Shown: positions 3,101-37,715 of the stretch, one piece after another
Numbering within the stretch: the stretch's first letter is position 1
How the letters are laid out: each line of letters opens with the position of its first letter
NCBI GenBank assembly: GCA_029261155.1
Contig: JAJDBW010000048.1
Span: 1 to 64,000, forward strand
Reading direction: 5' to 3'
Length of the DNA stretch: 64,000 nucleotides
Origin: Nitrospirota bacterium
GTDB lineage: Bacteria; Nitrospirota; Nitrospiria; SBBL01; JAADHI01
The notes under the pieces: generated by a model
What the model was told of the DNA's origin: nothing
What the model saw: the letters and a program-made list of their open reading frames with translations, nothing else
The model's database searches: none
Translations under genes and position numbers: made by a program

Positions 3101-3390
3101 AAGGCCTCCGGGAGTTGCTCGAAGGCGGTGGCCGCCGCCTCATCGTCGAGGGGCGTGATGTGCGTGCCTGGATTTGGAGATTGGGGCTCGAGTCCGCGAT
3201 GGAGTAAAAAATGAAGGACCCGATTCCGGCCGGGGGGCGTGTCTTTGGGAAATCGGATTGTGTCCTCGACGGCGATCCGATGTGTTTTGGGATCGAGATC
3301 GACTTTGATCTCGTGGTGGATTTCTCCGGCGTGAAGGACTGCGGCTCCGAAAAACGATAAACAAATGGCGATGCACAAAAATTGTTTCAT
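127..3390 (-). CDS. M1-like and M28 double metallopeptidase with truncated PDZ
   Basis: This large exported peptidase has two catalytic modules. The signal peptide starts at MKQFLCIAIC. I chose this ATG because AGGTG lies 5 nt upstream; an in-frame ATG at 3414 is less likely. An aminopeptidase-N-like half follows, with the zinc motif HEILHNWWG near residue 310 and the downstream glutamate in NWSEGL. Residues about 750-1010 form an M28 aminopeptidase domain with metal-ligand blocks GAHYDHLG, GADDNASG, FSGEE, NMDTVG and GGHDDFH. The C-terminus begins a PDZ domain (SPAEKAGLRAGDIIL) but stops two or three residues later, so most of the PDZ fold is missing. It probably degrades peptides in the periplasm or at the outer membrane. 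The early stop next to a transposase start suggests an insertion cut the gene. Confidence 0.85.
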   Translation of the reverse strand: MKQFLCIAICLSFFGAAVLHAGEIHHEIKVDLDPKTHRIAVEDTIRFPKDTPPGRNRVLHFLLHRGLEPQSPNPGTHITPLDDEAAATAFEQLPEAFSPTPDTGLEAYRLSLPAGQDTAVLRYAGKIDHPLHQEGEDHARSFQQTPGTVSEEGIYLEGATYWLPWFDQGLLTFTLDVTLPAGWDAVSQGERTRHEKGAERTEVRWESPEPQDAVFLIGGQFTEYSRPAGKVLAQAFLRTPDPALAEKYLGVTGQYIEMYDRLLGPYPYGKFALVENFWDTGYGMPSFTLLGPQIIRFPFILHSSYPHEILHNWWGNGVFVDAASGNWSEGLTAYLADHLIQEQRGRGRNHRRAVLQKYADYVSAASDIPLTAFRERHNPVTEAVGYGKTLMFFHMLRYELSDELFVRSLQDVYRSHRFKRASFEDLESAFSKRAQRDLSQTFAQWVRRTGAPQLRVEAAQAVAIEGGYRLTATLKQIQSGPAYRLNVPIAVHLEGQAAAHQTALAMTEKELQVELMLPARPLRLDVDPEFDLFRRLDRNEIPPALSLAFGGKRPLMLLPAKEKDSATTGYRQLAESWRQSQNPEIEIAWDEAFETLPSDRTVWLLGWENQFLNKMSEGLRHYDTALGAGQVRIGQDILRREEQATVVVTRNGENPNFALAWLAGDNPAALPGLARKLPHYGRYSYLGFKGDEPENKLKGEWPIIQSPMSVRVAQTDGKRVKVVTGKLAARQALATLPSVFSEERMHADLRFLADEKMKGRGFGTPELDRAADYIAEQFRKAGLIPLGDAEGSYFQSFEARAGDPEKTAVLKNVVGLLPGNNADWAGQSVVVGAHYDHLGLGWPDAHRGDDGKIHPGADDNASGVAVLLELARSLAGQSPQRSVIFVAFSGEEVQALGSRHYVQNQKDYPAEKMMGMLNMDTVGRLGNKKLRVFGAETAKQWPHLFRGIGFVTGISIQTVENEFNPSDQLSFHAAGVPAVQVFSGGHDDFHRPSDTLDKIDTAGMAKVAKVMSEAIAYLAERPDPMTVTLSEKNRNPAQQSTTPRRVGLGTLPDFAYEGKGARIDGVSSDSPAEKAGLRAGDIILLAS

Positions 3391-3439
3391 CGGACACCTA
3401 CATCGAGTGAACAACGAAGCGGCCCAGCCGCGCGCGGGG

Positions 3440-4670: not shown

Positions 4671-5486
4671 TTAGGGGTTTTTGGCGCAGCGAAATCCCAG
4701 AAAGGGAAAGCGTTCTTCCGGAAAGACATTTTGTCGGAAGGTGAGGCGTGCGAAAATGGGAAGTGTATAGTGGCCCGAATCGCCATAGGCATCGCCTCGG
4801 GCCACCTTATACTGCTGGCCGAAATCGGGGCTTTCGTAGTCCGCGCCTGGATAAGCTTGATACCAATTGGCCGTCCATTCCATGACATTCCCATTCATGT
4901 CGAAGAGGCCGTACACGCTGCGGTCTTGGCTGAAGCGTCCGACCATCATCACGCTTCCGTGGGTGCCTGCGCTCACGTTGCCTTTGGTGGCATCAAATTC
5001 CTTGCCCCAAGTATAGAGATTGCCGTTCGGCCCACGCGCGGCTTTTTCCCATTCGGCCTCACTTGGGAGGCGTTTTCCGATAGAGTCACAATAGTCACGG
5101 GCTTCGTACCAATTCACTTCCACCACAGGAAGCAGCCCTTGGCCGTCGGGTGGGTCTATCCCTCCCCAATAGGGGGGTGGTTTTCGCTGTCGGGCCTTTA
5201 TGAATATTGCATAGTCTTTGTTGGTTACTTCGAAGCGGTCGATAAGGTAGTCCGAAAGGGAGAGGCTTCGCTCGGGGTGTTCGTCCAAGTAAAATGGTTT
5301 TTTATTTCCCAACTCGCCCTGGAGGCCTTCGTCATCGACCTTGTCGCTTCCCATAATAAACGGCCCTTCGGGGATGCGGATCATTTCGGGGGGGTGTTGT
5401 TCGGGTTTTAGAACGAGATAGGTCAGTAGACCGATGGTAACGATAATTGTGGAAAATAAAACGAATTTCTTTAGTGAAAACACCAC
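4671..5486 (-). CDS. Membrane-anchored formylglycine-generating-enzyme-like (SUMF1/PvdO) protein
   Basis: The 271-residue protein has an N-terminal membrane anchor (FVLFSTIIVTIGLLTYLVL) followed by one FGE-sulfatase domain. Family signatures include IPEGPFIMGSD near residue 40, RFEVTNKDYAIF, PVVEVNWYEARDYCDSIGKR, LPSEAEWEKAARG, MNGNVMEWTANWY and the closing LGFRCAK. Family members oxidise cysteine or sulfur substrates, or are structural relatives without activity. The active-site cysteine pair of true FGE is not evident, so the reaction is unknown. The start codon is GTG. The gene begins only 25 bp after the 12-heme cytochrome stop on the same strand, so it is probably co-transcribed with the electron-transfer genes and may act in the periplasm on one of their products. 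Confidence 0.85.
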   Translation of the reverse strand: MVFSLKKFVLFSTIIVTIGLLTYLVLKPEQHPPEMIRIPEGPFIMGSDKVDDEGLQGELGNKKPFYLDEHPERSLSLSDYLIDRFEVTNKDYAIFIKARQRKPPPYWGGIDPPDGQGLLPVVEVNWYEARDYCDSIGKRLPSEAEWEKAARGPNGNLYTWGKEFDATKGNVSAGTHGSVMMVGRFSQDRSVYGLFDMNGNVMEWTANWYQAYPGADYESPDFGQQYKVARGDAYGDSGHYTLPIFARLTFRQNVFPEERFPFLGFRCAKNP

Positions 5487-5511: not shown

Positions 5512-8500
5512 CTACTTCTGGCCGTCAAGGACCGAATGGGCATCCGTATTGTGGTTCATGTCCCTTCCGTGGCACCTGAGATTGCAGCCTGGACCTTTAT
5601 GAGCACCATAGTCATTGAGGTTTGCTCCTGGACCGAATGCAGTATCTGGTCCATTAACGAGATGTCCTGCGCCCCAAAGGGGCTGATCGGAAACACGATT
5701 ACCGGTGATATTGGGCTGAAAATTGATTAGGTGCGAACTCATGTTGTGTCCCGGGTTATCGGCCTGAAACTGCGGATCGTTCATTCCGACGAAGATGGTA
5801 TTGCCCGCTTCGACATTGCTGTGGACATTATTGTGGCATTCGTGGCAGCGGGCATTTGTCCGTCCGACCAGATGGAGAAGGTGTAAATTGCCTCCTGTTG
5901 TTCCTAAACCATTCACATTACTTGTCCCACCGCGGTAAAAGTTGGTCAAACGTGACTTTGGCGCGATGGCCCCTGGGCTTTCCCACCATGGCGTAAGAAA
6001 GGCCGATTCGTTATGGCAATTGAAACACAGGGCGAAATTCTGTGGGTTGTACTGACCTCTAACGGTTCCTGGAGGCGGGCTGTCCGCTGTTCCTATTGTT
6101 GTATCATAGTTTGCCCTCAAAATTCGCTTATAATTCGAACCATGCGGCCCTTGCGCCGTTTTTGGGTCGTTGAGCGAGGCGGTCCGGACACCGACCGGAT
6201 CTTCGGGAATGCTAGGCGAACGATCGGTCGGGCGGCGGTAGGCGGTGCCGCGCGTATCGTCAAAAGTGATGGGGCCGGGATAGTCGGGAAGGTTGATGCC
6301 GAGTGGGAAACCAGTGCCGTCGAAGCCCAGAAATTGCGGGATGTTACCCAAGTAAGTGCCGAAGAGATCGGTATTGTGGCAGTCGGTGCAATGGATGGTG
6401 GCCTCGCGGGAGAGTCCCCCGGAGCCGTCATGCCCGCTGACCCGTCCACTGGAATCGAAATTGGCTTGGTGTCCGAAGCCTCCCATGAATTGGCCTTGCT
6501 GAGAAGGGACATCAACATAAAGATTAAAATTATTGAGTACGCCCGATTGATTCCGGCCCGGCTGAAAAACGGGATGAAAGGAGGTGTTCATCATCGGTGG
6601 ATTTGGGTCGGGAATCAAAGGGCCATTTTTGTCGTTTGGATCCAAAATCCTAAAATTCTCTGGATAAAACGGAGTGGAGTTCGGATCGAATTCTTTCCGC
6701 TTATTGCTGCCGTGGGCATTTACGCCCTTGCCGGGATCGATGGGGCTGTTTCCCCGCGCCTGAACTAGCTTTCCCGTGCCGACTGCGTTGAAGAGGGCTT
6801 CTCGGACGTGGTTGTTAAAGGTGTTGCCGTGGCAACGCAGACAGACTTCATAAATATAGGGCTCGCGTTTTTCGTCGACGCCGAGAAGGGTTTTGGCGAC
6901 GATGCCGCTGCGAATGGTGATTCCGGGCATGCCTTGAAAACGGTTTCTCCGTGTAACCCTGTGCATGTTGTGGCAGTCGACGCATTCGATATGCGAGGTA
7001 TCCGGTGTTTGCGCGCCGGGGACCACGTTGCGATCCTTGTTATTCGCCGGTTCTTGAAAGGGGCCGCCAAAATAGGAAGGCACCCGGTTGTCGCTGCCCA
7101 ACTGTACGCCTTCTTTTGGGAGATCGACAAAGACCGGTTGATGGCCTAAGCCCAGGGTCAGGTCCATGGCGCTTCCGGTCGGGGAGGTGCCGTTGTTTCC
7201 ATTGCCTTCCCGGTCCTTAAAGAATTGCGTACGAATGTCGGGTGCGCGGGTCGGGGCCTGTAAAATAGAGGTTTCTTGCGGTTGGTGACATTGAAAACAA
7301 GTCTGCTCAATGGCGACATTGCCGATGGGATCGACGCCTTCCCGCAAAATACGGATGGCCCCTTGCCGCGTATGCGGGTCGTGGCAAATCAAGCAAGCCC
7401 GTTCGGCGACTACTGGGGATTCGTCGTCGTGGAGGTTGGTTGCGCCGGGTTTCAGCCGCGAATCGTCAAAGACCCCGGTTTGTCGATCGCCGAAGTGGGA
7501 ATTCAATTCGTCCGGGTTGTAAGGCCAGCCTGGCTTGTCGTGACAAAAAAGACAGAGTATGGCGCCTTCTTGTGCGGGCTGTCCGCCGCGGCTTGCCGCG
7601 CCTACGCGTTTTTCAGACTGTGTGGCGGCAAAAGTTCGGGATTGGAGGCGGTTGGCGCGCAGAAATTTTGGAAAATCGACCTGGTGCGGATTATGACACG
7701 ACGTACACTGTACGGAATCGTAGACGTTATTGTTGTCGCCCGAAGCCCTTCTTAATGGCGAAAGCGGGGTCGGTGTGCTTTGCGTAAAAGGCCGATGGAC
7801 GGGCGGCCCCGGATTCACGAATTCGGCGTCTTTAGAAAGCAATTGGGTGTCGAAGACCATCGAAATCGGATGATCGTTTCGGAGGTCTTGTCCGAGCGCA
7901 CGCGTGTTCTGTGAGGCTGCACCGTCTCCCACCGGGATCGATCCGAAAGGTCCGGCCGGGGCCTGGCCGGTGGGGTATTCCATTGTATATTCCCCATCGA
8001 GGCCGCCGCTTCCACCTTTGTTTAGCACGCTGCCGAGGGCGATCGTTCCGTCGTGGCAAGATAGGCAAAGCCGGGAGTATCCGGTTGGACGGCGTCCCCC
8101 TTGGGTATTTTGGTTTAAATTCGCTTCGAAGGACTTACTCCAGACCTGATCGTACATTTGATACTGGTCGGGAGAGAGTTTTCGGTTCCAAATTGGGGCG
8201 CGAATGGTGACGCCTTCTCTTGAAGCGCCGTGGGGTGTATGGCAGAAGACGCAGACCTCGGTGGTGCCGTTTGCACCCGAGGAAGACTTAATGTTTCTTT
8301 GATTGTCCGGACTAAAGAGCTGTTCGAAGATGACTTGTTGGTCGCCGGTTAAGGGGAGCGCGGAGAGGTTATGTTTGGTCGCGCTGACATCTTCCTCAAA
8401 GGGTTCGGAGGTGGGTTGAGCCCAAGAGCTTCGCTCGAAAAAATAGGCCGTGAGCCCAATGAGCGTGAGCGTGGAGACAATCAATACAAGCCGAAAAGGC

Positions 8501-8559
8501 GAAGGCGATTGACCCGATTTTAATCTCGGCAGAAAACGCAGCAAGAACTTACCTTTCAT
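5512..8559 (-). CDS. Dodecaheme cytochrome c, exported (1015 aa)
   Basis: This is a large multiheme cytochrome with a signal anchor (LVLIVSTLTLIGLTAYFF, residues about 25-42). I count eleven CxxCH sites: CVFCH, CLSCH, CTSCH, CLFCH, CLICH, CFQCH, CVDCH, CLRCH, CTDCH, CFNCH and CHECH. A twelfth site near the C-terminus is a non-standard CNLRCH (CxxxCH). The first two sites lie in a module, CHTPHG...APIWNR...CLSCHDG...LRNDHPISM, which recurs in the 4-heme and 5-heme cytochromes of the same locus. Long Pro/Asn/Gly-rich linkers separate heme groups, as in extracellular or outer-membrane cytochromes. It probably conducts electrons across or outside the outer membrane. An NHL lipoprotein gene precedes it by about 160 bp, and the FGE-like gene follows closely. 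Confidence 0.9.
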   Translation of the reverse strand: MKGKFLLRFLPRLKSGQSPSPFRLVLIVSTLTLIGLTAYFFERSSWAQPTSEPFEEDVSATKHNLSALPLTGDQQVIFEQLFSPDNQRNIKSSSGANGTTEVCVFCHTPHGASREGVTIRAPIWNRKLSPDQYQMYDQVWSKSFEANLNQNTQGGRRPTGYSRLCLSCHDGTIALGSVLNKGGSGGLDGEYTMEYPTGQAPAGPFGSIPVGDGAASQNTRALGQDLRNDHPISMVFDTQLLSKDAEFVNPGPPVHRPFTQSTPTPLSPLRRASGDNNNVYDSVQCTSCHNPHQVDFPKFLRANRLQSRTFAATQSEKRVGAASRGGQPAQEGAILCLFCHDKPGWPYNPDELNSHFGDRQTGVFDDSRLKPGATNLHDDESPVVAERACLICHDPHTRQGAIRILREGVDPIGNVAIEQTCFQCHQPQETSILQAPTRAPDIRTQFFKDREGNGNNGTSPTGSAMDLTLGLGHQPVFVDLPKEGVQLGSDNRVPSYFGGPFQEPANNKDRNVVPGAQTPDTSHIECVDCHNMHRVTRRNRFQGMPGITIRSGIVAKTLLGVDEKREPYIYEVCLRCHGNTFNNHVREALFNAVGTGKLVQARGNSPIDPGKGVNAHGSNKRKEFDPNSTPFYPENFRILDPNDKNGPLIPDPNPPMMNTSFHPVFQPGRNQSGVLNNFNLYVDVPSQQGQFMGGFGHQANFDSSGRVSGHDGSGGLSREATIHCTDCHNTDLFGTYLGNIPQFLGFDGTGFPLGINLPDYPGPITFDDTRGTAYRRPTDRSPSIPEDPVGVRTASLNDPKTAQGPHGSNYKRILRANYDTTIGTADSPPPGTVRGQYNPQNFALCFNCHNESAFLTPWWESPGAIAPKSRLTNFYRGGTSNVNGLGTTGGNLHLLHLVGRTNARCHECHNNVHSNVEAGNTIFVGMNDPQFQADNPGHNMSSHLINFQPNITGNRVSDQPLWGAGHLVNGPDTAFGPGANLNDYGAHKGPGCNLRCHGRDMNHNTDAHSVLDGQK

Positions 8560-8720
8560 AGACGATCCACTATAATAAGCAGCAGATTTTTTGTCAACTT
8601 TGCGGATATCGATTGCAGAAAAGCATCATCCACCCGCGATTCAAATCAAGGCTTAAGCCGACTTCCTTTCGATATTATTTAGATCAAGCCAAATCTGTTT
8701 TCTCTAGCATCCAGAGGGTT

Positions 8721-9824
8721 TTAACCCGCCGGATTTTCTTTGCCGATAAGTTGAAACACTTGTACCCGTTTATTGTAGGCATCTGCAACATAAATTCGAC
8801 CGTCTTGATTCACGGCGATCCCTGAAGGCAGCCAGAAAAAGCCGGGGTCAACACCTGAGGCCCCGAAGTTCAAGAGAAGCGCTCCGGATGGGTTGAACAC
8901 TTGGACGGTGTCGAACAAGGTGTCGACCACGTAGATATTGCCTTGCTGATCGACGGCTATCCCTTTTGGACGGGAGAATTCCCCCAGGTTGTAACCCAGA
9001 CTGCCCACCTGTGACAGTGGCTTTCCTTCGGGGTCGAAGACCTGTATTCGGAAGTTGAGCGAATCGGAAACGTACAAGTCCCCTTTTTGACTAACCGTCG
9101 CATAGGTTGGAAAATTGAAGGTGCCGGCTTCAACGCCGCGTTTACCAATGGTGCCGAGTTTTTCTCCGAGGAGGGAGTAGATCAAGACGTGGTGCGCCAT
9201 GGTGTCGACCACGTAAAGTCGTTCTCGCTCCCTGTCGATGGCGATGCCGGAGACCCGTTGAATTTCTTGGTCGTTGCCGATGACCCGAATGGACTTCCCC
9301 TCCCGATCGAAGACGAAGATTCGGTTTAAGTCGGCATCCGAAACGTAAAGTTGAAAAGCCTTGTCGACTGCGACCCCGATGGGGTTTTGAAGTCGGACGT
9401 CCGGGTTGACTTCGAAAAATTGTTTGTAGCGATGACCTTTTTCGTCAAAGTAATGCACGACCTGCAGGCCCGTGTCGGCGACGTAGACGCCCCCTTCGGC
9501 GTCGACGGTAATGCCCGAAGGGCGAATAATATAGGGCGTTTTTCCTTCTCCGAAAATAAATTGAACGATCTTTTTAAACCAAGAGGGTTCAATGCCGATA
9601 TCGGCGGGTTTGACCCAGGTTTGAACGAAGGAGATTCGCGGCGGATCGGGGGGCTTCGGCCAAAAGATGGCCGGACTTTCTTTTACCGGCGCTGTGGCGC
9701 AAGCCGAAAGCGCAAGCAGCACCACCAACATGCCGACTTTGTAGCGTGCCACCTTAAGAAGGGAAGCCAAGCGAGATGCCTTGTGCGGCCCTTTCCTTAT
9801 TTTTTTATCCTTGAATCGTTCCAA
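8721..9824 (-). CDS. NHL-repeat beta-propeller lipoprotein (copy 1)
   Basis: The 367-residue protein has a hydrophobic signal and lipobox (LLALSAC), so it is probably a lipoprotein. The rest forms about six NHL blades, visible as repeated segments such as GITVDAEGGVYVADTG, GVAVDKAFQLYVSDAD, GIAVDQQGNIYVVDT and GIAVNQDGRIYVADAYNKRV. The N-terminal region before the propeller (WPKPPDPPRISFVQ) matches WPPPPEAPRIQFLK in the second NHL gene at 13615-14739, so the two are paralogues. NHL propellers bind proteins or peptides. Here each copy neighbours a multiheme cytochrome, which suggests a role in docking, maturation or export of the cytochromes. The gene follows the beta-barrel gene by 35 bp. Confidence 0.88.
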   Translation of the reverse strand: MERFKDKKIRKGPHKASRLASLLKVARYKVGMLVVLLALSACATAPVKESPAIFWPKPPDPPRISFVQTWVKPADIGIEPSWFKKIVQFIFGEGKTPYIIRPSGITVDAEGGVYVADTGLQVVHYFDEKGHRYKQFFEVNPDVRLQNPIGVAVDKAFQLYVSDADLNRIFVFDREGKSIRVIGNDQEIQRVSGIAIDRERERLYVVDTMAHHVLIYSLLGEKLGTIGKRGVEAGTFNFPTYATVSQKGDLYVSDSLNFRIQVFDPEGKPLSQVGSLGYNLGEFSRPKGIAVDQQGNIYVVDTLFDTVQVFNPSGALLLNFGASGVDPGFFWLPSGIAVNQDGRIYVADAYNKRVQVFQLIGKENPAG

Positions 9825-9859
9825 GCGCTATGGGCCCTTTCGTGATTTTTCGGCCTTCA

Positions 9860-11830
9860 TTAAAACGATCGGCTCATGCGTCCGAAAATCGATTGGCTCT
9901 TGTATTCCACATTGTCGCCAAGGCTTTTGGAGGTGTCTTCGCTCCATCGCCCATCGAGACTTAAGACAAATTTCCCAATTCGATACACGATGGCGGAGGT
10001 GGTCTCGATAATGTCGCGATCAAAGGAGCTATCCCCTTGCGTGCGCTCTTGGTTGGCCCGTGCGCCGAAGTTGATTGTGGTGTTGCCGAGATAAAAAGTC
10101 CAGCGGATTTCTTCGTAGAAGATGTGGGAGTCCAGATAGAATCCGCCCGGATAGTCTTGGTAGGTCCAACCGCTGGAGAGCATGCCCCCGCGCAAAAAGT
10201 AATAAGTGCCCCGGGCGTCTGTGAGGAAGTTATCGCCGTCGGGGCCAAAGCCCTCAATTTTAGTCCAACTCGCAGTACTTTGTAGGATGAGACTGTCGTC
10301 TTCAAGTAGAAGTCCCCTGAAATAACTCGAATCGGCATTAAGTTGAACTCGGTGCGAGAGTTGATCCCCGATTTCCTGATTCGCCGGAACGGGTTGAAGC
10401 GAATTCGTAGCTTGCGGGACGTTGAGGTCACGGTCGATGTCGTTGAGGGTGTAGCTTAAGGCCAAATGAATGAGGCGAATGCGGGTGTTTTCTACGCGCA
10501 GGGTAATGGTGTTCATGAGGTCGGTTTCGTCACTCTTTGCCGTATTCCCAATGGCATCGCTTTGGTCGGTATCCGTCATACCATAGGCCAAGGCGTAACT
10601 GGCGGAATAGCGTAGAACTTCCAAGGCACGGGTGTAGTTTAGGTACCCGCGATAGCGTTGGTAGCTGGTGTCGATGTTGACTGCGCCGATCTGGCTGGCC
10701 TCGGTTTCCGTCCAGCCATAGGCGGCGCCCAGGCCGGAGGAGAGGCCGAAGAAAGGCCGATAGTTCAGGCTGTAATCGAAATAAGGCGAGGTGGTCTTCG
10801 AATCGCTGATATCGAAACTGGAATAACGCCCGCTCATGACCATGTCGAGTGTTTCCATCGGACGATAAGATCCGCTCAAGAAGGCGCTTTGCCGAACCAA
10901 ATCCACTTTTCTTCCAGGATTGTTGGGGTCTGCGACGCGGGTGCTGGGTGTTTCGGCGTAATCGATGCGCGCATGCGTGTCCCAGTGGACTGAGGGGGTA
11001 TAAAATAAAGAGGCGCCGATCCCCTGCTCTTGCGTGAAGGCCGAACCAGTTCCATTTCGTTCGGAGGAGCCGCCATCCGTGGTGAGCCTTGAGTAGGTGC
11101 TCAGCACCAAGGCGGGCGCGAGACGGCTCTCCGTCGTGAGATTGAAGGAGTTTCCTTTTATGGTATCGATGCTACCGGACTGTTGGCCGGGTAGGGCTGT
11201 CCGGGCGACATCGGTTTCGTTGAATTGATATCGACCGATCAGCGAGGTCTCTCCGACTCGGCCACTGGATTCCAAATTGACGAAACGATTCAAGGTGCTG
11301 GGCAGGCGGTTGGGGTCGTCAATGGATTTGGCCTCGCTTTGGTTATAAGAAAGCGAGATGCGCGGGAGAAAGGAGGCTGAAAGGGCCCAATTTCCGCCAA
11401 AGGTGGTTAGCAGGTCTTTGTCCTTCATGTCGAGTGGACTCTCAAAGCGGTTGGATCGGGTGACGCGCTGGTAATAAAGGCTGAGTGGCGAAAGGGTTGG
11501 GAAGAGGTTTAAGGCGATGGAGTAATCGGTAAACTCAAAATCCTGGTCTCCCTGGCCATCTGTTTTTGTGTCTTGTTCGAGATAGGTGGCACTCATGAGA
11601 ATGGTGCCGATGCGCGGGTCGAAAAGCTCGCCGAAATTACGGAGGTTGTAGCGTTGTTGAAAAAAAGTGGTTTCGTCGGTCTCGTTGTTTTGCTCCGTCT
11701 TAAAGCTGCCGTAATTCAGGTCGAGCGAGCCGCTTAAATTAATAAAACGGGCCTCGGCCCAAGACGGAGCAAGCAGGGACAAGAAGAGGATGATTATCCC
11801 AAAATAAGCGCGTTTTCCCAAATGGAGCAA
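9860..11830 (-). CDS. Predicted outer-membrane beta-barrel (porin-like) protein
   Basis: The 656-residue protein has a signal peptide (IIILFLSLLAPSWAEA). The mature part is rich in alternating hydrophobic and polar strands with aromatic girdles, for example LDLNYGSFKT, YNLRNFGELF, YSIALNLFPTLSPLSLYYQ, ATYLEQ and WTFYLGNTTINFGARA, and it ends in phenylalanine (IFGRMSRSF), as expected for BAM substrates. It lacks heme motifs. Lying among multiheme cytochrome genes, it could be the pore that houses a cytochrome (MtrB/PioB/OmbB-like role) or an export channel. No direct sequence motif proves the MtrB family. The gene lies 77 bp after the SurA-like chaperone gene, a sensible partner for barrel or cytochrome folding. 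Confidence 0.75.
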   Translation of the reverse strand: MLHLGKRAYFGIIILFLSLLAPSWAEARFINLSGSLDLNYGSFKTEQNNETDETTFFQQRYNLRNFGELFDPRIGTILMSATYLEQDTKTDGQGDQDFEFTDYSIALNLFPTLSPLSLYYQRVTRSNRFESPLDMKDKDLLTTFGGNWALSASFLPRISLSYNQSEAKSIDDPNRLPSTLNRFVNLESSGRVGETSLIGRYQFNETDVARTALPGQQSGSIDTIKGNSFNLTTESRLAPALVLSTYSRLTTDGGSSERNGTGSAFTQEQGIGASLFYTPSVHWDTHARIDYAETPSTRVADPNNPGRKVDLVRQSAFLSGSYRPMETLDMVMSGRYSSFDISDSKTTSPYFDYSLNYRPFFGLSSGLGAAYGWTETEASQIGAVNIDTSYQRYRGYLNYTRALEVLRYSASYALAYGMTDTDQSDAIGNTAKSDETDLMNTITLRVENTRIRLIHLALSYTLNDIDRDLNVPQATNSLQPVPANQEIGDQLSHRVQLNADSSYFRGLLLEDDSLILQSTASWTKIEGFGPDGDNFLTDARGTYYFLRGGMLSSGWTYQDYPGGFYLDSHIFYEEIRWTFYLGNTTINFGARANQERTQGDSSFDRDIIETTSAIVYRIGKFVLSLDGRWSEDTSKSLGDNVEYKSQSIFGRMSRSF

Positions 11831-11907
11831 TGCCTCTCCTCAGTGTAAAACTCGGTGTTCCGCGTATCGGGCAGGGAAGCCAAGGAGCGGATCCCTAAGG
11901 TGTATTG

Positions 11908-12477
11908 CTAATTGACGAAATCGTCTCCCGAATCCTGCGTTGAAATGACAATGGTCGCTCTTGTTGTCAATTTTTGAAGCGCTTGCCTGCGTTCGTTTTC
12001 AGGTGTGCTTACAAGCTTCTCCCAGGTTTTTTCGATTAGGAGAGAACGCTCGACGCCTTTTCGTATCGCCGCCGGGTCGAGTCGGGCCTTCGCTAAGGCC
12101 GCCTCAAAATCGGTGTCGGACGAAAAGCGGTCTCGGATTCGTGCCAGACCCACTTCGATGTCTTCCTCGCTGACCACCAAGCCCTGTCGGCGTCCTTCTT
12201 GATAAAGGAGTTCTTCCTCGATCAGTTTTTTGAGCATCTCTTTTTCGAGGGTCGCCATTCTGCTTTCTGAAAGTTTCGTGTGGCCGATCCGGCGAAGATA
12301 GGCACGAACATGCTCTCGCACGGCGGCCTCGCTAATTGGAACATCGTTGACGCTGGCCCACAATTGAGTGCGGGTCGTCTCTTCGGTGGCCGCCGCAAGC
12401 GATACGCTGACTAAAATTGTTGTGAAGCACGCTGCCCATTGTAAGGCCCTGCGTTTTTTTGTTTGGCTTTTTATCAT
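11908..12477 (-). CDS. SurA-like periplasmic chaperone lacking the parvulin domain
   Basis: The 189-residue exported protein has the signal FTTILVSVSLAAA. The body matches the N-terminal chaperone region of SurA/PpiD-type peptidyl-prolyl isomerases: WASVNDVPISEAAVREHVRA, then MLKKLIEEELLYQEGRRQGL, VSEEDIEVGLARIRDRF and a final helix. The catalytic parvulin domain that normally follows is absent, and only a short tail remains, so it probably acts as a holdase rather than an isomerase. Its ATG overlaps the TGA of the preceding 4-heme cytochrome gene (ATGA), indicating translational coupling. It is a good candidate for a dedicated chaperone of the cytochromes or the barrel protein. Confidence 0.8.
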   Translation of the reverse strand: MIKSQTKKRRALQWAACFTTILVSVSLAAATEETTRTQLWASVNDVPISEAAVREHVRAYLRRIGHTKLSESRMATLEKEMLKKLIEEELLYQEGRRQGLVVSEEDIEVGLARIRDRFSSDTDFEAALAKARLDPAAIRKGVERSLLIEKTWEKLVSTPENERRQALQKLTTRATIVISTQDSGDDFVN

Positions 12478-13574
12478 TTTTTATGACAACTCAAACAGAT
12501 AAGACTTCTTTCATTTCGATCTTGCGAATTGGCCCCGGGTCGGGATGCAAGTCTGAGAAAAAGCGAGTTGTTTATCGTAAAGGCATTAATGGGTTCTGAA
12601 AGCGCGGGTTGACCTCCAGGCCGACTGGCCTCGTGGGGATTGTGGCAGGAGGCGCATTCGATATAAGGGGCATCGGGCCGGCTCGGGTCTGAAGCATAGG
12701 CCCGAATGCGATCGCGTTTATCGATGGGCAAAAAGGCGCCGTTGGGATCGCGATCAATCCACATGACTTCGCCACTGCCCGGAATCCGTCCGCCCTTGGT
12801 CGTAATATTCGTCAAAATTTCTCTGAATTGCGGATCGGTACGCGGAATTTCCATGCTGATGGGATGGTCATCCCGTAGATCGAGTCCCAGGTTGGGAAAG
12901 GGTTCTGCGCCGAAGGAGGCATTGGGTCCGCCGCCGAACTGATCGAAATAGATAAAGCCACCCGCTTCGTTATTGCGTTGGCCTTCTCTAAAGCTGTTTG
13001 AGGCATCGACCGCCGGGCCGGAAAAACCCATACCGATACTGCCGCCCGGTCCGCTCATGATCTTATTGTCTTGAAAGAAGCCGCCCGAGCCCGAGCTGTT
13101 GATGAGGGCATCGAAGGCCACTGCGCCGTCATGACAGGATAAGCAAGCCAGCGAAACGCCCTTGGGCCGTCCTGGATTGCCTAAGAGGTCTTGCGCATCG
13201 AAATGTGGGCTGGAGTAAGGGGTGAAGCCCATGGGGTTGGACAGCCGTCTATTCCAGAGGGGGGCAATCCCTTCGACACCGCCCACGTTGCTGCGGCCGC
13301 CATGGGGCGTATGACAAAAAATACACACTTCTTCATTGAGTCGGACATCGCCCTCGGTGCCTCGCACGGCTGGATTGCGCGCGCCCCGGAGGGAGGTCAG
13401 GTCGCCGGGCTTGAAGTCCGTCCCTTCACCGGCCAGAATGTCAGGATTGACAGCCAGGTTGTGTTTGGTGTGTCGGATATCTTCAGAGGCTTGCGCTTGT
13501 CGTGCCGCAGGGAAAGGGATGGCGTAAGCGATCAGGAAGCAGAGTAGCAATATTCTGAATAAGCCCAGATTCAT
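12474..13574 (-). CDS. Tetraheme cytochrome c (366 aa)
   Basis: This exported cytochrome has four CxxCH sites: CIFCH, CLSCH, CASCH and, at the extreme C-terminus, CLSCHKK. It has a signal peptide at the start (LLLCFLIAYAIPFPAA). The region from DIRHTKHNLAVNPD through EVCIFCHTPHGG, IAPLWNRRL, LACLSCHDGAVAF and LRDDHPISME is the same module as in the 12-heme and 5-heme proteins. Between sites lie Gly/Asn-rich stretches such as GSGGFFQDN. It is likely periplasmic or extracellular and takes part in chain-like electron transfer. It is coupled by a 4-bp overlap to the chaperone gene downstream and lies 40 bp after the second NHL gene. Confidence 0.9.
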   Translation of the reverse strand: MNLGLFRILLLCFLIAYAIPFPAARQAQASEDIRHTKHNLAVNPDILAGEGTDFKPGDLTSLRGARNPAVRGTEGDVRLNEEVCIFCHTPHGGRSNVGGVEGIAPLWNRRLSNPMGFTPYSSPHFDAQDLLGNPGRPKGVSLACLSCHDGAVAFDALINSSGSGGFFQDNKIMSGPGGSIGMGFSGPAVDASNSFREGQRNNEAGGFIYFDQFGGGPNASFGAEPFPNLGLDLRDDHPISMEIPRTDPQFREILTNITTKGGRIPGSGEVMWIDRDPNGAFLPIDKRDRIRAYASDPSRPDAPYIECASCHNPHEASRPGGQPALSEPINAFTINNSLFLRLASRPGANSQDRNERSLICLSCHKK

Positions 13575-13614
13575 CGCGATGAAGCGGCTCCTTTTTCAAG
13601 CGTTTGAAATAGAC

Positions 13615-14739
13615 TCAATTTTTTTCCGACCTATCGGGCGCGACCCCCGAACCGGATGCAAGCGGTTCGGCTTTGACTGCTGAGGGGCGTTTTTCTTTTG
13701 GCGTGGAAAGCGAAGTTGCGGGTGATGGCCTATTCAAAAACTGAAAGACATTGACCCGATGATTGTATTGGTCGGCGACATAAATCCGGTCTTGGCTGTC
13801 GATGGTGAGGCCGGCCGGAAGCCAGAACTGGCCTTCCTGTCCGCCAAACTCACCGAAGAAGAGCAGCAGTTGGCCATTGGGGTCGAAGATTTGTACATTA
13901 TTAAATCGGGCATCCACGACATAGATGTGGCCTTGGGAATCGACACCAATGCCCTTCGGCAGCGAGAACTGTCCAAAGCCCGTGCCCACCGATCCGAACT
14001 TGCTTAAAAACTTTCCATCCGGGTCGAAGACCTGGACTCTGAAGTTCATGTCGGTAATATAGATCTTGCCCGTTTTGTCGACAAAAAGGTTGGAGGGGAA
14101 ATTGAATTCGCCGTCTCCGGTGCCCCGCTGGCCAAAATCAAAGAGCGGCTTTCCCTCGAAATCGAAAACGAAGGCTTTGTGTTTTCGGGTATCGACAATA
14201 TAGACTCGCTTGAGTTCATTGTTGACGCCGATGCCGACGGGCCGTTCCATTTGGTTGAGGTCCCCAATATTAAAAAGATGCTTTCCTTCCGCGTCGTAAA
14301 CCAGGCATTTTCGAAGCACCGTATCGGTGACATAGACCCGGCCTGCGCTATCGGCAGTGACGCCCAGCGGTCCGGCCAAGGCGCCGGGGCCATCGACGCC
14401 GAGCATGGAAAATTGGTTCTGTTGGGAATCGAAAACCAGGACTTTTCTCCACCCTGAATCCGCAACATAGAGGCGTCCATTTGGTGTAGCAAACACAGCG
14501 TAGGGCTTGACCAAGCGCGCTGTTTCGGATTTATCGAATAAAAACGCCTTAACGCGGTCCATCCAACTTTTTTTCTCGACATCTTCGGACGAAGAAATCG
14601 ATTTGAGGAACTGAATGCGAGGGGCTTCGGGCGGCGGCGGCCAAACGAGATCGGGATTGGAAAGCGGTTTTTTTCCGCCACAGCCGGTTAAGAGGCCAAT
14701 TACGAGGCTTAAGGTGACAAAGAGCAAGGGTTTTCTCAA
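13615..14739 (-). CDS. NHL-repeat beta-propeller lipoprotein (copy 2)
   Basis: The 374-residue lipoprotein (lipobox GLLTGC) has about six NHL blades, seen as FATPNGRLYVADSG, GVTADSAGRVYVTDT, GVNNELKRVYIVDT, FVDKTGKIYITDMNFRVQVF, GVDSQGHIYVVDARFNNV and TIDSQDRIYVADQYNHRV. It is a paralogue of the protein at 8721-9824: both have the proline-rich lead-in WPPPPEAPRI and the same blade register. The C-terminus has a Ser/Pro/Lys-rich tail. It lies 13 bp after the 5-heme cytochrome gene and 40 bp before the 4-heme gene, so it is co-transcribed with them. A propeller paired with each cytochrome set suggests a scaffold or assembly role. The exact function is not known. Confidence 0.88.
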   Translation of the reverse strand: MRKPLLFVTLSLVIGLLTGCGGKKPLSNPDLVWPPPPEAPRIQFLKSISSSEDVEKKSWMDRVKAFLFDKSETARLVKPYAVFATPNGRLYVADSGWRKVLVFDSQQNQFSMLGVDGPGALAGPLGVTADSAGRVYVTDTVLRKCLVYDAEGKHLFNIGDLNQMERPVGIGVNNELKRVYIVDTRKHKAFVFDFEGKPLFDFGQRGTGDGEFNFPSNLFVDKTGKIYITDMNFRVQVFDPDGKFLSKFGSVGTGFGQFSLPKGIGVDSQGHIYVVDARFNNVQIFDPNGQLLLFFGEFGGQEGQFWLPAGLTIDSQDRIYVADQYNHRVNVFQFLNRPSPATSLSTPKEKRPSAVKAEPLASGSGVAPDRSEKN

Positions 14740-14752
14740 AGGCGAGGTTCTC

Positions 14753-15583
14753 CTATTTTTGATGACAGGTCAGGCAAAGCGCGCTTCCTCGGTTTGAGGT
14801 TCTTAAAAAGGGATCTCGGCCTTCTAGGTTTTTTTCGTCCGGGCTGTGGATGTCGTGACAAGAGGCGCATTGCACCTTGTCTCCCTCAAAGGTTTGGATG
14901 CCGTTTGGAAACATTCTTCCCCCGTCCGTCTTAAGAATCATGGGTTGATTGAATTGAGGATCTTGGTCGAGGGTGGGAAAGGTCATCGAAAAGGCATGGT
15001 CGTCGCGCAGGTCTTTCGTGAAATATCGGATCGTGGCGTCGTGCGCGCCGGAAAGGCCGCCATAGGCCCCTTCATTTCGATTGTGGCATTTGGAGCAGGC
15101 GTCCGAACCGGGTTCGCCTTCCAGGGTCATCCGATGTTTTACTCCGGCTTCAGAAATGTCATGAAAACGCGGTGGTTTTAAAATGGAATCGACTGCGACC
15201 GATCCATCGTGACAAGAAAGGCAGGCGAGTGAAATGCCGTCGGGCGCTTTGGGTAAGACCGAGTCGAAGTTGGGACTTGAATACATCCGATATTCTCTTT
15301 CTTTCGGCAGTTCTCTATTCCACAATGGTGCGTAACTGCTGCTGTTATGGGGGGTATGGCAATAAACGCAGGTCTCGCGGTAATCGCTGAAGGTCCCACC
15401 TTGCATCGGTCCGGTTTCGGCTTGGTAGCCGCGCCAATTCAGGGCCGAAAGGTCGTGACGAGACCGCACAATCGACCCGCCATCGACCGAAGCGGAGATA
15501 AAAAGGAGGACGACCGTCGTGAGGCAAAGTCCGATCAGGCCGCTTTTTTTTTGGATCAATCTATGTGATTTAAATCCGATCAA
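14753..15583 (-). CDS. Pentaheme cytochrome c
   Basis: This exported cytochrome has five CxxCH sites: CVYCH, CLSCH, CSKCH, CASCH and CLTCHQK at the C-terminus. The N-terminal membrane segment is LIGLCLTTVVLLFISASV. The shared module is present as RHDLSALNWRG, CVYCHTPHNSSSYAPLWNREL, CLSCHDGSVAV and LRDDHAFSMTF. I chose the TTG at 15583 because AGGAG lies just upstream and a normal signal peptide follows; the frame extends to a TTG at 15628 without a better site. It appears to be the first gene of the minus-strand cytochrome operon, 80 bp downstream of a promoter-like sequence, and is followed 13 bp later by an NHL gene. Confidence 0.87.
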   Translation of the reverse strand: MIGFKSHRLIQKKSGLIGLCLTTVVLLFISASVDGGSIVRSRHDLSALNWRGYQAETGPMQGGTFSDYRETCVYCHTPHNSSSYAPLWNRELPKEREYRMYSSPNFDSVLPKAPDGISLACLSCHDGSVAVDSILKPPRFHDISEAGVKHRMTLEGEPGSDACSKCHNRNEGAYGGLSGAHDATIRYFTKDLRDDHAFSMTFPTLDQDPQFNQPMILKTDGGRMFPNGIQTFEGDKVQCASCHDIHSPDEKNLEGRDPFLRTSNRGSALCLTCHQK

Positions 15584-15771: not shown

Positions 15772-15798
15772 TTGACATTTTACAAATACTTGTGTTAT
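15772..15798 (+). promoter_or_regulatory. Possible promoter for the plus-strand triheme cytochrome genes
   Basis: A perfect TTGACA at 15772-15777 is followed by TGTTAT at 15793-15798, a four-of-six match to a -10 box but with a short 15-bp spacer. It lies about 37 bp before the first gene of the plus-strand block. The spacing makes it weak evidence. Confidence 0.3.
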
Positions 15799-15834
15799 CC
15801 ATCCCCTACTTTTTATATTTGCCAGGGAGGAATG

Positions 15835-16206
15835 ATGAAAAAAGTTCGGATTGGCATCTTGTTGGGTTTTGTACTGCTCTTACCGTCCTTGTTCGTGGGT
15901 GACAATGTGTCAGGATATTATGGCGATATGGTGCTAAACAGCAAGGCCGAAAAAAGAGGGATGCCACCCGTTGTCTTTCCCCACTGGTATCACCGGGCTG
16001 AGTTTAAGTGTAAAGTCTGCCATCCGGCCATTTTTGAAATGCGTTCGGGTGCGAACGATATCGATATGAAAAAAATTATCGTCGACGGGCAGTTCTGCGG
16101 AAAATGTCACAACGGGACAATCTCTTGGAAGCCCATCGATTGTGCTCGGTGCCATTCTGGGGTGCCCGGCATGAAGACAGGCGTATTGGAAGGGTTCCCA
16201 AACTAG
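15835..16206 (+). CDS. Triheme c7-type cytochrome c (paralogue A)
   Basis: This small exported triheme cytochrome has a signal peptide IGILLGFVLLLPSLFV. The heme sites are CKVCH, CGKCH and CARCH. The fold signature is FPHWYH (distal histidine helix), then CHPAIFEMRSG, IDMKKI and GQFCGKCHNG, which matches the cytochrome c7-like family. I chose the second of two adjacent ATGs (15832 and 15835), because it lies 4 nt after GGGAGG. It is very similar in layout to the next gene, indicating tandem duplication. It starts the plus-strand arm of the divergent cytochrome island and probably ferries electrons through the periplasm to the outer-membrane components. Confidence 0.85.
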   Translation: MKKVRIGILLGFVLLLPSLFVGDNVSGYYGDMVLNSKAEKRGMPPVVFPHWYHRAEFKCKVCHPAIFEMRSGANDIDMKKIIVDGQFCGKCHNGTISWKPIDCARCHSGVPGMKTGVLEGFPN

Positions 16207-16216
16207 GAGGGTTTTT

Positions 16217-16891
16217 ATGACCTGGGCAGCAAAAGGACGAAAGCGATCTCTTTATCTTATTGTTGGTTTTTTAGCCGTGTCCCTTTCATCGATTTATGCC
16301 TGTGCGCGTCAGGCCAAGAGCGAGCCGATGGCCGATGCCGCACCCACCGTCGTTGCCCAAGCCGAGGCGCCCGTTCAAGTTAAAGAAGAGGATTTAAAGG
16401 CCCCGAAGACTGGACCGAAAACACGGTCCTTGGTCGCGCCCCCACCCGTTGAAGGGCTTCGCAAGTTTGAAGATCCAACCGTCCTTCCCACACCGGGGCC
16501 GCCTTACAACGAGCACAATACCAACCCGGATGTCGTGATGGAAAGCATTCCCAAGGAAGCCACCGGCGTGGAAGACTGGGTTGCTGCTTTTAAAGAAAAC
16601 AAAATCAATCCGCACGAATCGCTCGATTTAAGTAAGCCGCATACACCGCCCTTTAATTTCGATGTCGAAATCCCTGCCGTGGGCTCCATGCCCAATGTGA
16701 TCTTTCCGCATTTCCAGCATACCTATTGGCTTGATTGCGGCAATTGTCATCCGGGGATTTTCCTCATGAAAAAGGGCGGAAATCCCATCTCGATGGTGAA
16801 GATTGTTAACGGTGAATTTTGCGGACGCTGTCATGGCCGTGTGGCCTTCCCGATCGCAAACTGTACCCGTTGTCATGTCAAACCCAAATAA
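16217..16891 (+). CDS. Triheme c7-type cytochrome c lipoprotein (paralogue B)
   Basis: The 224-residue protein starts with a signal and a lipobox-like IYAC. A Pro/Ala/Glu-rich linker of about 100 residues follows, then a C-terminal triheme domain with CGNCH, CGRCH and CTRCH. The domain has FPHFQH, CHPGIFLMKKG, ISMVKIVNGEFCGRCHG, closely paralleling the previous gene. The long linker could let the heme domain reach across the periplasm from a membrane anchor. A strong AGGAGGG site precedes the ATG, 10 bp after the previous stop, so the two genes form an operon. A role as periplasmic electron carrier or tethered shuttle is inferred. Confidence 0.85.
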   Translation: MTWAAKGRKRSLYLIVGFLAVSLSSIYACARQAKSEPMADAAPTVVAQAEAPVQVKEEDLKAPKTGPKTRSLVAPPPVEGLRKFEDPTVLPTPGPPYNEHNTNPDVVMESIPKEATGVEDWVAAFKENKINPHESLDLSKPHTPPFNFDVEIPAVGSMPNVIFPHFQHTYWLDCGNCHPGIFLMKKGGNPISMVKIVNGEFCGRCHGRVAFPIANCTRCHVKPK

Positions 16892-16935: not shown

Positions 16936-17826
16936 GTGAGGATTTCATCTGCCATAGGGTCGGGAAATCGTCCTGCCTTGTTTGATCTAGGTTCCCTAGT
17001 CAGAAACCGGGTCCTCGCTCTTCTCCTATTCGCCCTACTCCTTGTTCCGGTCGATTCTCTAGAAGCCGGTATGGCAAAGCCGGATCGAAACCAGGAGCAA
17101 CTGATCGGGCCGGTAAAGACCTTGTTGATTGAATTTGCGAAACTCAATAATGTCGATGGGGAATGGGTACCCGAATCGCCTCGGACGCCTTGGCTTTCGA
17201 CCCTTTACGATTCATCAGGTTTTCAAATTGAGGAAGAGCAGTTCTACACTGAGAAGAGTCTTGATTTTAAATCCGTCTTTCAGTACGATGCTGCCGGGAA
17301 TTTGTCCGAGGGGGTCGAGTACGATTATCAGGGAACGGTTGCTTTTAAGTGGTCCTATGCCTACGATTTGGTCAAGAAAACCATCGAGAAAAAGCAGTTT
17401 TTCCCCGATGGCGTGCTCTTTTCGGTTACAACGCGTTTCTATGACGCGAACGGAAACCTGGTCGAGGAAAAACGGTTTCTTGCGCAAACTCAAAACCGGT
17501 TCAAATGGACCTATGCTTACGACAATGCGGGAAAGAAGATTGAGGAAGCCTATTTTCTTGAACGCCGGGGTGAACGCCCTGGTAGCACAAAATCGCTGTT
17601 GAACTTTAAAGCCATATTTCGCTATGATAAAGAAGGAAATATGATCGAAGAAACAAAGTACGATGCCTCGGGCCGGATCAGCGGCGTCAGGCGTTTTAAA
17701 TACGCGTTCGATCAAGTCGGAAATTGGATTACGCAGACCGCTTTTGAATCGCTAGGAGACAATGAAACATCAGCGCTTGTGCCCACCGAGATTACCTACC
17801 GTACCTTTTCTTATTATCCGCAATGA
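16936..17826 (+). CDS. RHS/YD-repeat-like exported protein
   Basis: The protein has a signal segment LALLLFALLLVPVDSL and then short repeated units of the YD/RHS type: VFQYDAAGNLSEGVEYD, YAYDLVKKTIEKKQF, RFYDANGNLVEEKRF, YAYDNAGKKIEEAYF, IFRYDKEGNMIEETKYD and FAFDQ-like closings. Such repeats form beta-rich shells or strips, and no toxin domain is attached here. The start is uncertain: the reading frame opens upstream inside the cytochrome gene (ATG at 16819), but a GTG at 16936 avoids that overlap and gives a normal signal peptide. Its stop overlaps the start of the next gene (ATGA). The function is unknown. Its placement suggests a surface or periplasmic partner of the cytochromes. Confidence 0.7.
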   Translation: MRISSAIGSGNRPALFDLGSLVRNRVLALLLFALLLVPVDSLEAGMAKPDRNQEQLIGPVKTLLIEFAKLNNVDGEWVPESPRTPWLSTLYDSSGFQIEEEQFYTEKSLDFKSVFQYDAAGNLSEGVEYDYQGTVAFKWSYAYDLVKKTIEKKQFFPDGVLFSVTTRFYDANGNLVEEKRFLAQTQNRFKWTYAYDNAGKKIEEAYFLERRGERPGSTKSLLNFKAIFRYDKEGNMIEETKYDASGRISGVRRFKYAFDQVGNWITQTAFESLGDNETSALVPTEITYRTFSYYPQ

Positions 17827-18947
17827 CCTTCCTAAGGCGACGATCTAGATTCAGGCTGTTTTTATTCATCGCGCTTTTATTCTGCCTTCATTTCCCCCTC
17901 CCATCCTCCTTTGCGCAGGCCCCTATGCCGCAAAGGAACCCGGAGCTCTGGAATCACTTTTCCCTCTTTTCGATTGTGCGGGCCTTGGCCATTGACGGCG
18001 ATACCGTGTGGATCGGTACCTCAAATGGCATTCTAAGATACAATCTTTCCACCGAAGACCAACAGGTGTATACGACGAAGGACGGCCTGCTTTCGAACAT
18101 GATCCATTCCATTACCGTTGGCCCTGATGGGGTGATTTGGGTGGGAACCTATGGGGGCGGCTTAAGCCGCTTCGATGGAAAAACGTGGACAGCCTACACC
18201 CCCTACGGCTTGGGCTCGACCCTGACTTATGCGGCCAATTGGACGCCCTTTAAAAAGGGGCAAGGCTTAGGCGATCTTTGGGTGTATGGTATTCATTTCG
18301 ATCCGAAGGGCGTGATGTGGGTGGCCACATGGAAGGGCGTCAGCCGTTTCGATGGGAAGGCATTTAAAACCTATACCACTGACGATGGTCTTATCGACAA
18401 ATGGGTTTACACCTTGAGCCAAGACCGCGATGGCGTCTTTTGGTTTGGCACGGAAGGCGGCGTGACGCGCTACGATGGAAAGACTTGGCGGAGTTATACG
18501 AATAAAGACGGCGTCGGGACGGATGTCGGAACAACAACGCCGCCCGAAGTCCAATCCCTTCCCTTCACGCCCCGGCACCACGCAGAAGGCGGCGGAAAGC
18601 CGCTTCGCTACAATCCAAATTATATTGTCTCCTCCGTGGTCGATGCGAAAAATCATCTATGGGTCGGGACCTTGGGCGGCGGGCTTGCACGTTTCGACGG
18701 TAAAAGCTGGAAAAGTTATTCCACAAAAGACGGCTTGGCGGGCAATATGGTCCACGCCATTAAAATTGACCGTAACGGCCTTCTCTGGATCGGCACAGAC
18801 GGAGGCGTCAGCCGTTTCGACGGTAAAACCTTTTCGAACCTAAGCAAAAAAGATGGTGTTAGCACTGTCTTTTCCATTGCTTTCGACAAAGAGGGAAACA
18901 AGTGGTTTGGAACCTTCGGCGGCGTCAGTCAATACCGGGGAGATTGA
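17823..18947 (+). CDS. Two-component-regulator-type beta-propeller protein, exported
   Basis: The 374-residue exported protein (signal LFLFIALLFCLHFPLPSSFA) is built from propeller repeats of the kind found in the sensor domains of hybrid histidine kinases. Units include VWIGTSNGILRYN, VIWVGTYGGGLSRFDGKTW, VMWVATWKGVSRFDGKAF, VFWFGTEGGVTRYDGKTW, LWVGTLGGGLARFDGKSW and LLWIGTDGGVSRFDGKTF. No kinase or membrane domain follows, so it is a stand-alone propeller. The start overlaps the preceding stop (ATGA), so the two are translationally coupled and probably interact. With the two NHL proteins this is the third propeller in the island. A scaffold function is an inference. Confidence 0.85.
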   Translation: MTFLRRRSRFRLFLFIALLFCLHFPLPSSFAQAPMPQRNPELWNHFSLFSIVRALAIDGDTVWIGTSNGILRYNLSTEDQQVYTTKDGLLSNMIHSITVGPDGVIWVGTYGGGLSRFDGKTWTAYTPYGLGSTLTYAANWTPFKKGQGLGDLWVYGIHFDPKGVMWVATWKGVSRFDGKAFKTYTTDDGLIDKWVYTLSQDRDGVFWFGTEGGVTRYDGKTWRSYTNKDGVGTDVGTTTPPEVQSLPFTPRHHAEGGGKPLRYNPNYIVSSVVDAKNHLWVGTLGGGLARFDGKSWKSYSTKDGLAGNMVHAIKIDRNGLLWIGTDGGVSRFDGKTFSNLSKKDGVSTVFSIAFDKEGNKWFGTFGGVSQYRGD

Positions 18948-30171: not shown

Positions 30172-30298
30172 TGTTTCGATGGTCTATTGTCTCGCGTCTA
30201 TTTGAAACAAGGGCCTTGATGGTCTCGCAGGCATGGATCGTCTTTCATCTTTTGGTTGGGCCATGATATGACCCGACCAAAATGGCACGATTATAGCG

Positions 30299-31501: not shown

Positions 31502-31548
31502 TGATCACTCCTTTTGGATATGCACAATCCGCTTTAGCTGATTCGCGT

Positions 31549-32682: not shown

Positions 32683-32694
32683 CGCTCTATTCTC

Positions 32695-34518: not shown

Positions 34519-34616
34519 GATGTGGCAGATTAAAAGACATCCCCTCCCTTTGGGGCCCGCAGAGATCCCGCACTGGCCGGCTGGAGACGGTAAAACGACC
34601 TCGTTCTGACTAAAAA

Positions 34617-34645
34617 AGCTTATCCGATGATTGATGTTCTGTCAA
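34617..34645 (-). promoter_or_regulatory. Sigma-70-type promoter before pilB
   Basis: On the minus strand TTGACA (-35) is followed by a 17-bp spacer and TAAGCT (-10, three of six consensus bases). It falls in the 143-bp gap between aroE and pilB, so the pil operon may have its own promoter. The start codon is about 100 bp downstream of the -10 box. Confidence 0.4.
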
Positions 34646-34661
34646 ACGATTCTAGGGCACT

Positions 34662-37655: not shown

Positions 37656-37715
37656 CGATCGGCCGTCGGGGCAAGGGTTAGCGCGCCATCAAACAAAGTA
37701 ATCATAGGGGGATTT

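Follow-up and report, generated by a model that had tools for sequence, protein, structure and literature searches.

The 64,000-nucleotide window analysed here (positions 1 to 64,000 of contig JAJDBW010000048.1, assembly GCA_029261155.1, from a Nitrospirota bacterium) contains an operon in which three multiheme cytochromes, designated A12, B4 and C5, are encoded together with a candidate outer-membrane beta-barrel, two NHL beta-propeller proteins and a SurA-like chaperone (Table 1). By their alignments, each of the three cytochromes near certainly carries the complete tetraheme fold of OmcE, a protein polymerizing into an extracellular filament (PMC9473688; PMC12954529). In A12 this unit is followed by an octaheme extension, which forms a gene of its own in other families. 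An OmcE-type extracellular filament and its outer-membrane base could be encoded at this locus; the chances of this model as a whole are judged to be about even.

Relation of the three cytochromes to OmcE

Every motif quoted for the N-terminal parts of these cytochromes in an earlier note on this DNA is present in all three proteins. In A12, B4 and C5, respectively, these are KHNL, KHNL and RHDL; the heme-1 motif CVFCHTPH, CIFCHTPH and CVYCHTPH; APIWNR, APLWNR and APLWNR; CLSCHDG, common to all; and LRNDHPISM, LRDDHPISM and LRDDHAFSM. The coordinates in the note were right (the C5 reading frame starts at 15628), and its counts of 12, 4 and 5 hemes hold if the CX3CH site of A12 (CNLRCH) is included, since CXXCH occurs 11 times in A12, 4 times in B4 and 5 times in C5. 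The interpretation of the module as an N-terminal seed has to be replaced. The shared stretch continues past the DHP motif through the third heme, C[AT]SCH[ND]xH (CHxPH), and the fourth, LC[LI]xCHxK (final LCxxCH), and is therefore a complete four-heme unit, which corresponds to the entire tetraheme OmcE unit and covers mature B4 in full, C5 almost completely and A12 from about residue 56 to residue 343.

The top matches of A12, B4 and C5 in single-sequence phmmer searches of the Protein Data Bank (PDB) are OmcE (7TFS) and 9YUQ, an entry with 16 identical chains (C5, 1.1e-23; B4, 3e-10; A12, 2.3e-10). The profile of 54 B4/C5-type proteins matches 7TFS with E=3e-51 and 9YUQ with 6.9e-42; the A12-family profile matches 7TFS with 5.5e-45 over chain residues 24-232, which make up the mature chain. 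Unrelated cytochromes follow in these profile searches only at E about 1e-7. On these matches, the homology of the module to OmcE can be regarded as established. The link to filament-forming cytochromes proposed in the earlier note is thereby kept in part: the only strong matches among solved structures are the OmcE filament 7TFS and 9YUQ, but the relation is to OmcE (CHTPH) and not to the CHTMHN type named there. Among solved structures, the module was not found to be common to soluble monomeric cytochromes. Membership in the OmcS family was considered and rejected, the match to 6EF8 being only heme-motif-sized (6.4e-7).

Similarity of this kind could be produced by convergent spacing of heme motifs, because CXXCH and compositional bias are common to multiheme cytochromes, and OmcE and OmcS have their heme geometry in common without sequence similarity (PMC9473688). 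However, the long shared segments APLWNR and DLxxDHP fall outside the heme motifs. In a control comprising 1000 shuffles for each of six protein pairs, with every CXXCH held in place, the observed score was reached by 0/1000 shuffles in all six. Pairwise scores among A12, B4 and C5 lie 24.7-32.0 standard deviations above the shuffle mean, and those of the three proteins against OmcE 13.6-23.6. Convergence through heme motifs alone was rejected on this basis, and its probability is negligible.

Genome-wide, A12, B4 and C5 are mutual best matches, followed by one weak match on another contig. No close relatives were found among viral contigs, and the PF22113 search of G009 for other large outer-membrane cytochromes gave none above the cut-off. 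No description of OmcE-like or OmcE-family proteins outside Geobacter was found in the full-text literature, subscription papers not being covered.

Age of the paralogues

In the first module tree (123 modules; branch support by the Shimodaira-Hasegawa-like approximate likelihood ratio test, SH-aLRT), C5-type rows form one group (97) and 26 of the 29 B4-type rows another (100). A12-type rows make up one side of a branch (87), and this side spans Nitrospirota, Pseudomonadota, Verrucomicrobiota, Planctomycetota and others. C5 is again a single group (100/99) in the second tree of 110 rows. Because the A12-, B4- and C5-type modules form separate groups, each of which crosses families and, in the A12 type, also phyla, the three cytochromes can be considered ancient paralogues. 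Recent duplication inside this genome was rejected by both trees. The earlier scheme of a seed module copied and extended is thus retained as regards one module in all three proteins and extra hemes in two of them; the copying itself has to be moved far back.

Fusion and fission of the dodecaheme cytochrome

A profile built from the octaheme extension alone detected this part of A12 in 82 of 295 Nitrospirota genomes. The module is also present in 79 of these 82, a co-occurrence to be read with the fact that the fused protein alone supplies both parts, that the Fisher value (1e-50) overstates independence, the genomes being related, and that the figure is inflated because the module itself served partly as bait in collecting the loci; some contigs of metagenome-assembled genomes (MAGs) also end inside clusters.

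Eleven loci encode the extension separately, in a gene directly adjacent to one for an OmcE-like tetraheme protein. The products of these split octaheme genes are about 360-460 amino acids (aa) long and contain 7 CXXCH plus one CX3CH at the C-terminal end. In several Nitrospirota families the split octaheme has its own signal-like N-terminus, and both partners look exported where the N-terminus is clear. Nine of the eleven split tetrahemes group with fused A12 modules and not with B4 or C5 (support 93/88, 110-row tree). The split loci and this tree placement together indicate that A12 is a two-part protein, consisting of an OmcE-type unit and an octaheme which are separable, and the fission or fusion of A12 can be taken as established from the gene arrangements. 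When two proteins are separate in some lineages but joined in others, they usually represent mutually binding partners.

About 90% of A12 homologues retain the terminal CX3CH. In the "undecaheme" cytochromes of Uet ("undecaheme electron transfer") clusters, the conserved C-terminal CX3CH would bind a 12th heme; the name undercounts because this site is missed when CXXCH is counted.

Among the split pairs L128-L139, Cys-rich tails (CHxDC..ACP) terminate most of the tetraheme proteins, and the sequence YC[VI]N..C..W is found at the C-terminus of many of their octaheme partners. Since Cys-bearing ends occur on both sides, a disulfide between split tetraheme and octaheme is possible. A further open reading frame (ORF) of 834 aa (L137:3-2504) contains 15 CXXCH and two stretches like the octaheme extension, with no OmcE module.

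Histidine ligands and chain ends

Across 54 sequences, all four CXXCH sites are invariant, as are four additional His. Candidates for the distal ligands are H31, H58, H149 and H208 in OmcE, H63, H110, H230 and H292 in A12, H38, H91, H237 and H314 in B4 (exactly four for four hemes) and H58, H94, H211 and H261 in C5. A fifth His of C5, H196, which is invariant among C5 orthologues, is available for the inserted heme. Stand-alone units with 4-5 hemes stop exactly 2 residues past the last CXXCH in 128 of 140 cases, like OmcE. The chains of B4 (...CLSCHKK) and C5 (...CLTCHQK) end directly after heme 4 of the module. A12 was not classed as a plain subunit because its chain does not end there. Its fused homologues keep the CHxK end and continue into a segment like GWxxS[ST]H, with a His located 7-15 residues past heme 4 in 39 of 40 (H355 in A12). 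In the split octahemes a His shortly precedes the first heme (9/9).

A12 itself could polymerize, forming a wire with 12 hemes per subunit to which B4 and C5 would be accessory, and a complete OmcE unit, including the four ligand His, is indeed present in A12. However, the extension takes up the C-terminal face of the A12 module, and a potential cis His follows heme 4. Moreover, separate module genes are kept in 32 of 38 fused loci, and other families encode the module and the extension separately. A wire made of A12 is therefore very unlikely.

Proposed mechanism

In the OmcE filament, His of one subunit coordinates the heme of the adjacent subunit (PMC9473688). C5 and/or B4 could be exported with the help of the SurA-like chaperone and then join head to tail, a His being given to the neighbor's heme and the last heme of each filament subunit borrowing its ligand from the next one. 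Polymerization of C5 or B4 is judged somewhat more likely than not. In A12 the heme-4 ligand would be supplied in cis by the extension via H355. The first 290 mature residues of A12 would represent a nanowire subunit whose C-terminal face is covalently joined to the octaheme. Since this face is occupied, only the N-terminal face would be free to dock C5 or B4, and docking on this face only would make A12 the start or the terminus of the wire. A12 could thus join the heme chain of the wire to the outer-membrane conduit formed by the beta-barrel, with the octaheme situated at or in the barrel. The chance that A12 acts as such an adaptor is put slightly below even. Transfer through the periplasm could be performed by the c7 trihemes, while the beta-propeller lipoproteins and the SurA-like chaperone could serve export and assembly. 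The current may run inward in this lineage, which is related to Mn(II) oxidizers.

A number of points weigh against the filament with an A12 base. No filament has been seen, and homology to OmcE is no proof of polymerization. The counts of His and chain ends are by themselves no proof of cis-capping, and the His after heme 4 could instead be a ligand of heme 5. AlphaFold2 monomers have a mean pLDDT (predicted local distance difference test) of only 43.2 for B4 (54-sequence alignment) and 36.8 for A12 (29 sequences). In L132 and L140 (family f29) the order is reversed, with the octaheme gene first, and the OmcE-like module lies outside the A12 group. There is no stand-alone module near the fused loci L106, L136, L141, L144 and L147, and the sole module match of genome G034 is inside A12.

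The locus could also encode a plain porin-cytochrome conduit without any filament. A12 would then span or cap the barrel, as in the Mtr/Pcc/Uet complexes, and B4 and C5 would be surface or periplasmic monomers for which the OmcE fold provides no more than a shape for docking. The barrel and dodecaheme genes adjoin in one operon, and the cluster resembles both the Uet porin-cytochrome complex (PMC10734462) and the porin-dodecaheme complexes of Manganitrophaceae (PMC9040806); that no filament has been shown agrees with this explanation as well. On the other hand, one of the matched structures (7TFS) is a filament and the other (9YUQ) an entry with 16 chains, and the length rule (128/140) and the invariant ligands are what a polymer interface would keep. 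The conduit without a filament is regarded as somewhat unlikely.

Operon conservation, companion proteins and host lineage

The operon of the window reads C5, NHL propeller, B4, SurA-like chaperone, beta-barrel, NHL propeller, A12 and FGE-domain protein, the two c7 trihemes being divergent from it on the C5 side. This order, C5-NHL-B4-SurA/PPIase (peptidyl-prolyl isomerase)-barrel-NHL-A12-FGE, is kept across many Nitrospirota families. It was seen in relatives from the same family and order and in distant families (L028-L030, L108-L117, L127 and others), and conservation of the operon can be considered established for the contigs compared.

A C-terminal Phe, the usual mark of outer-membrane barrels, is present in all ten barrel orthologues listed. 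The barrel protein has no match in Pfam, NCBIfam or PDB, its profile has none in PDB, and similarity to MtrB or to any solved porin is not detectable. Such a barrel could serve to secrete the subunits, a role proposed for OscEFG, instead of being part of an electron conduit, and A12 would then be an extracellular tip or side-branch protein contacting mineral. Components encoded by the osc genes are reported to be a secretion channel and chaperone for OmcS (PMC13194489), and the missing porin similarity is compatible with such a role. A conduit would account equally well for the gene order and for the joint conservation of barrel, NHL1 and A12, however, and this alternative is judged unlikely.

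The chaperone of the window contains SurA_N only; a PPIase domain is missing from it and from its homologue in L109, but the homologues in L111 and L114, from two other Nitrospirota families, include a PPIase (Rotamase) domain. The closest named contigs belong to the Nitrospirota MAGs OFTM211 and OFTM336. The prefix OFTM presumably refers to an Oslofjord tunnel study, in which Manganitrophus relatives in the order SBBL01 were described (PMC11442690). Modules of the cluster occur in every one of the 14 genomes belonging to families f1 and f2 and in none of the other 4 genomes of the order.

Table 1. Features of the cytochrome locus and of other parts of the window
Feature	Position	Strand	Description
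FGE-sulfatase-domain protein	4671-5486	-	Directly downstream of A12; kept in cluster (1-3 copies)
A12	5512-8559	-	Dodecaheme cytochrome (11 CXXCH + 1 CX3CH), 1015 aa; OmcE-type module + octaheme extension; UetJ-like
A12, octaheme extension	5551-7530	-	
A12, 12th heme site	5569-5586	-	CNLRCH (CX3CH), residues 992-997
A12, H355	7495-7497	-	15 residues past module heme 4
A12, module	7531-8394	-	OmcE-type tetraheme module, about residues 56-343
NHL1	8721-9824	-	NHL beta-propeller; lipoprotein-like signal LSAC
Barrel	9860-11830	-	Candidate outer-membrane beta-barrel, 656 aa
SurA-N chaperone	11908-12477	-	189 aa, without PPIase domain
B4	12474-13574	-	Tetraheme cytochrome, 366 aa; bare OmcE-type unit (module 12477-13484)
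NHL2	13615-14739	-	NHL beta-propeller; lipoprotein-like signal LTGC
C5	14753-15628	-	Pentaheme cytochrome, 291 aa; OmcE-type unit (module 14756-15475)
C5, inserted fifth heme	15083-15097	-	CSKCH, between module hemes 2 and 3
D3a	15772-16206	+	Triheme c7-type cytochrome (TIGR04257), divergent to operon; probable periplasmic relay
D3b	16217-16891	+	Triheme c7-type cytochrome (TIGR04257)
PilS-like kinase	28396-30171		
PilB-like ATPase	32695-34518		
Sigma-54 regulator	40654-42030		
PilX-like	44253-45500		

Neighboring genes

The trihemes are adjoined by a propeller-type protein (17823-18947), which many relatives conserve together with the cluster. In many families A12 is followed by one to three genes for FGE-sulfatase-domain proteins (e.g., L111, L114, L136, L147); to our knowledge, no nanowire role of such proteins has been described. 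Type IV pilus-related genes are located in 28396-45500, about 13-30 kb from the cytochromes. Geobacter pili have been proposed as an aid to nanowire secretion. Near the start of the window, a large ORF (127-3414) appears by eye to join an M1-type peptidase (HEILHNWWG) to an M28-type one.

Wider significance

A 2025 review (PMC12307469) named the outer-membrane anchoring of cytochrome nanowires, and the site at which electrons enter them, as an open question. A concrete candidate for such an anchor is this widespread protein: one half of it is a nanowire subunit and the other an octaheme, its gene lies next to those of a barrel and of assembly factors, and in some lineages it is divided between two adjacent genes. 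Two separate literatures, on OmcE nanowires and on the Uet/PCC conduits of metal oxidizers, are joined by it, and the fusion could be used as a marker for finding nanowire clusters across phyla. The question can be addressed through single residues, namely the CHTPH His and H355. As a tentative and rather doubtful generalization, the "undecaheme" conduit cytochromes of many phyla could be dodecaheme proteins in which a nanowire subunit is fused to an octaheme base; they would physically anchor and polarize OmcE-type nanowires and couple them electrically to the outer membrane; in relatives of Mn(II) oxidizers, the wires may import electrons and may be mixed C5/B4 polymers.

Comparison with known systems

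The whole mature chain of Geobacter sulfurreducens OmcE (7TFS) aligns with B4, C5 and the A12 module, and its four CXXCH and four other His follow in the same order as in these proteins. The putative multiheme cytochrome c of 9YUQ, matched by the family profile as given above, has the same tetraheme unit. Unlike OmcE, the locus has three paralogues in one operon, C5 with an inserted heme, B4 with long insertions and A12 with an octaheme fusion.

The Uet cluster of cathode- and iron-oxidizing bacteria encodes a porin-cytochrome complex (PMC10734462). Judged by gene content, the tetraheme UetA, the SurA/PPIase UetB, the barrel UetC, the trihemes UetDEG, the two NHL proteins UetHI and the undecaheme UetJ of Tenderiales and Gallionella all have counterparts here. 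In contrast to the three trihemes of Uet with a TPR gene between them, the locus has two adjacent trihemes with no TPR gene between; it also has the extra pentaheme C5, a chaperone without the PPIase domain and an "undecaheme" type with a conserved 12th CX3CH site. Because of the two trihemes, the missing TPR gene and the extra pentaheme it is not a strict Uet cluster; it is a variant of it and can be called "Uet-like".

The osc (omcS-companion) genes are reportedly involved in folding, secretion and morphology of OmcS nanowires, with OscEFG proposed as the channel (PMC13194489). In both systems the gene of a nanowire-type cytochrome is accompanied by genes for a chaperone, a beta-propeller and an outer-membrane protein resembling a channel. 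The locus differs from the osc cluster in having a subunit of OmcE type instead of OmcS type, one barrel as against OscEFG, an added dodecaheme fusion, and a chaperone with SurA_N only in place of the prolyl-isomerase chaperone.

The porin-dodecaheme complex PCC_1 is reported to be common to Manganitrophaceae and absent outside this family (PMC9040806). Like the locus, it combines a barrel with a dodecaheme cytochrome and comes from the same order of Nitrospirota; homologues of the locus, by contrast, occur with lower identity outside f1 and f2. The composition fits, as compared by description only, and the locus is a good candidate for PCC_1.

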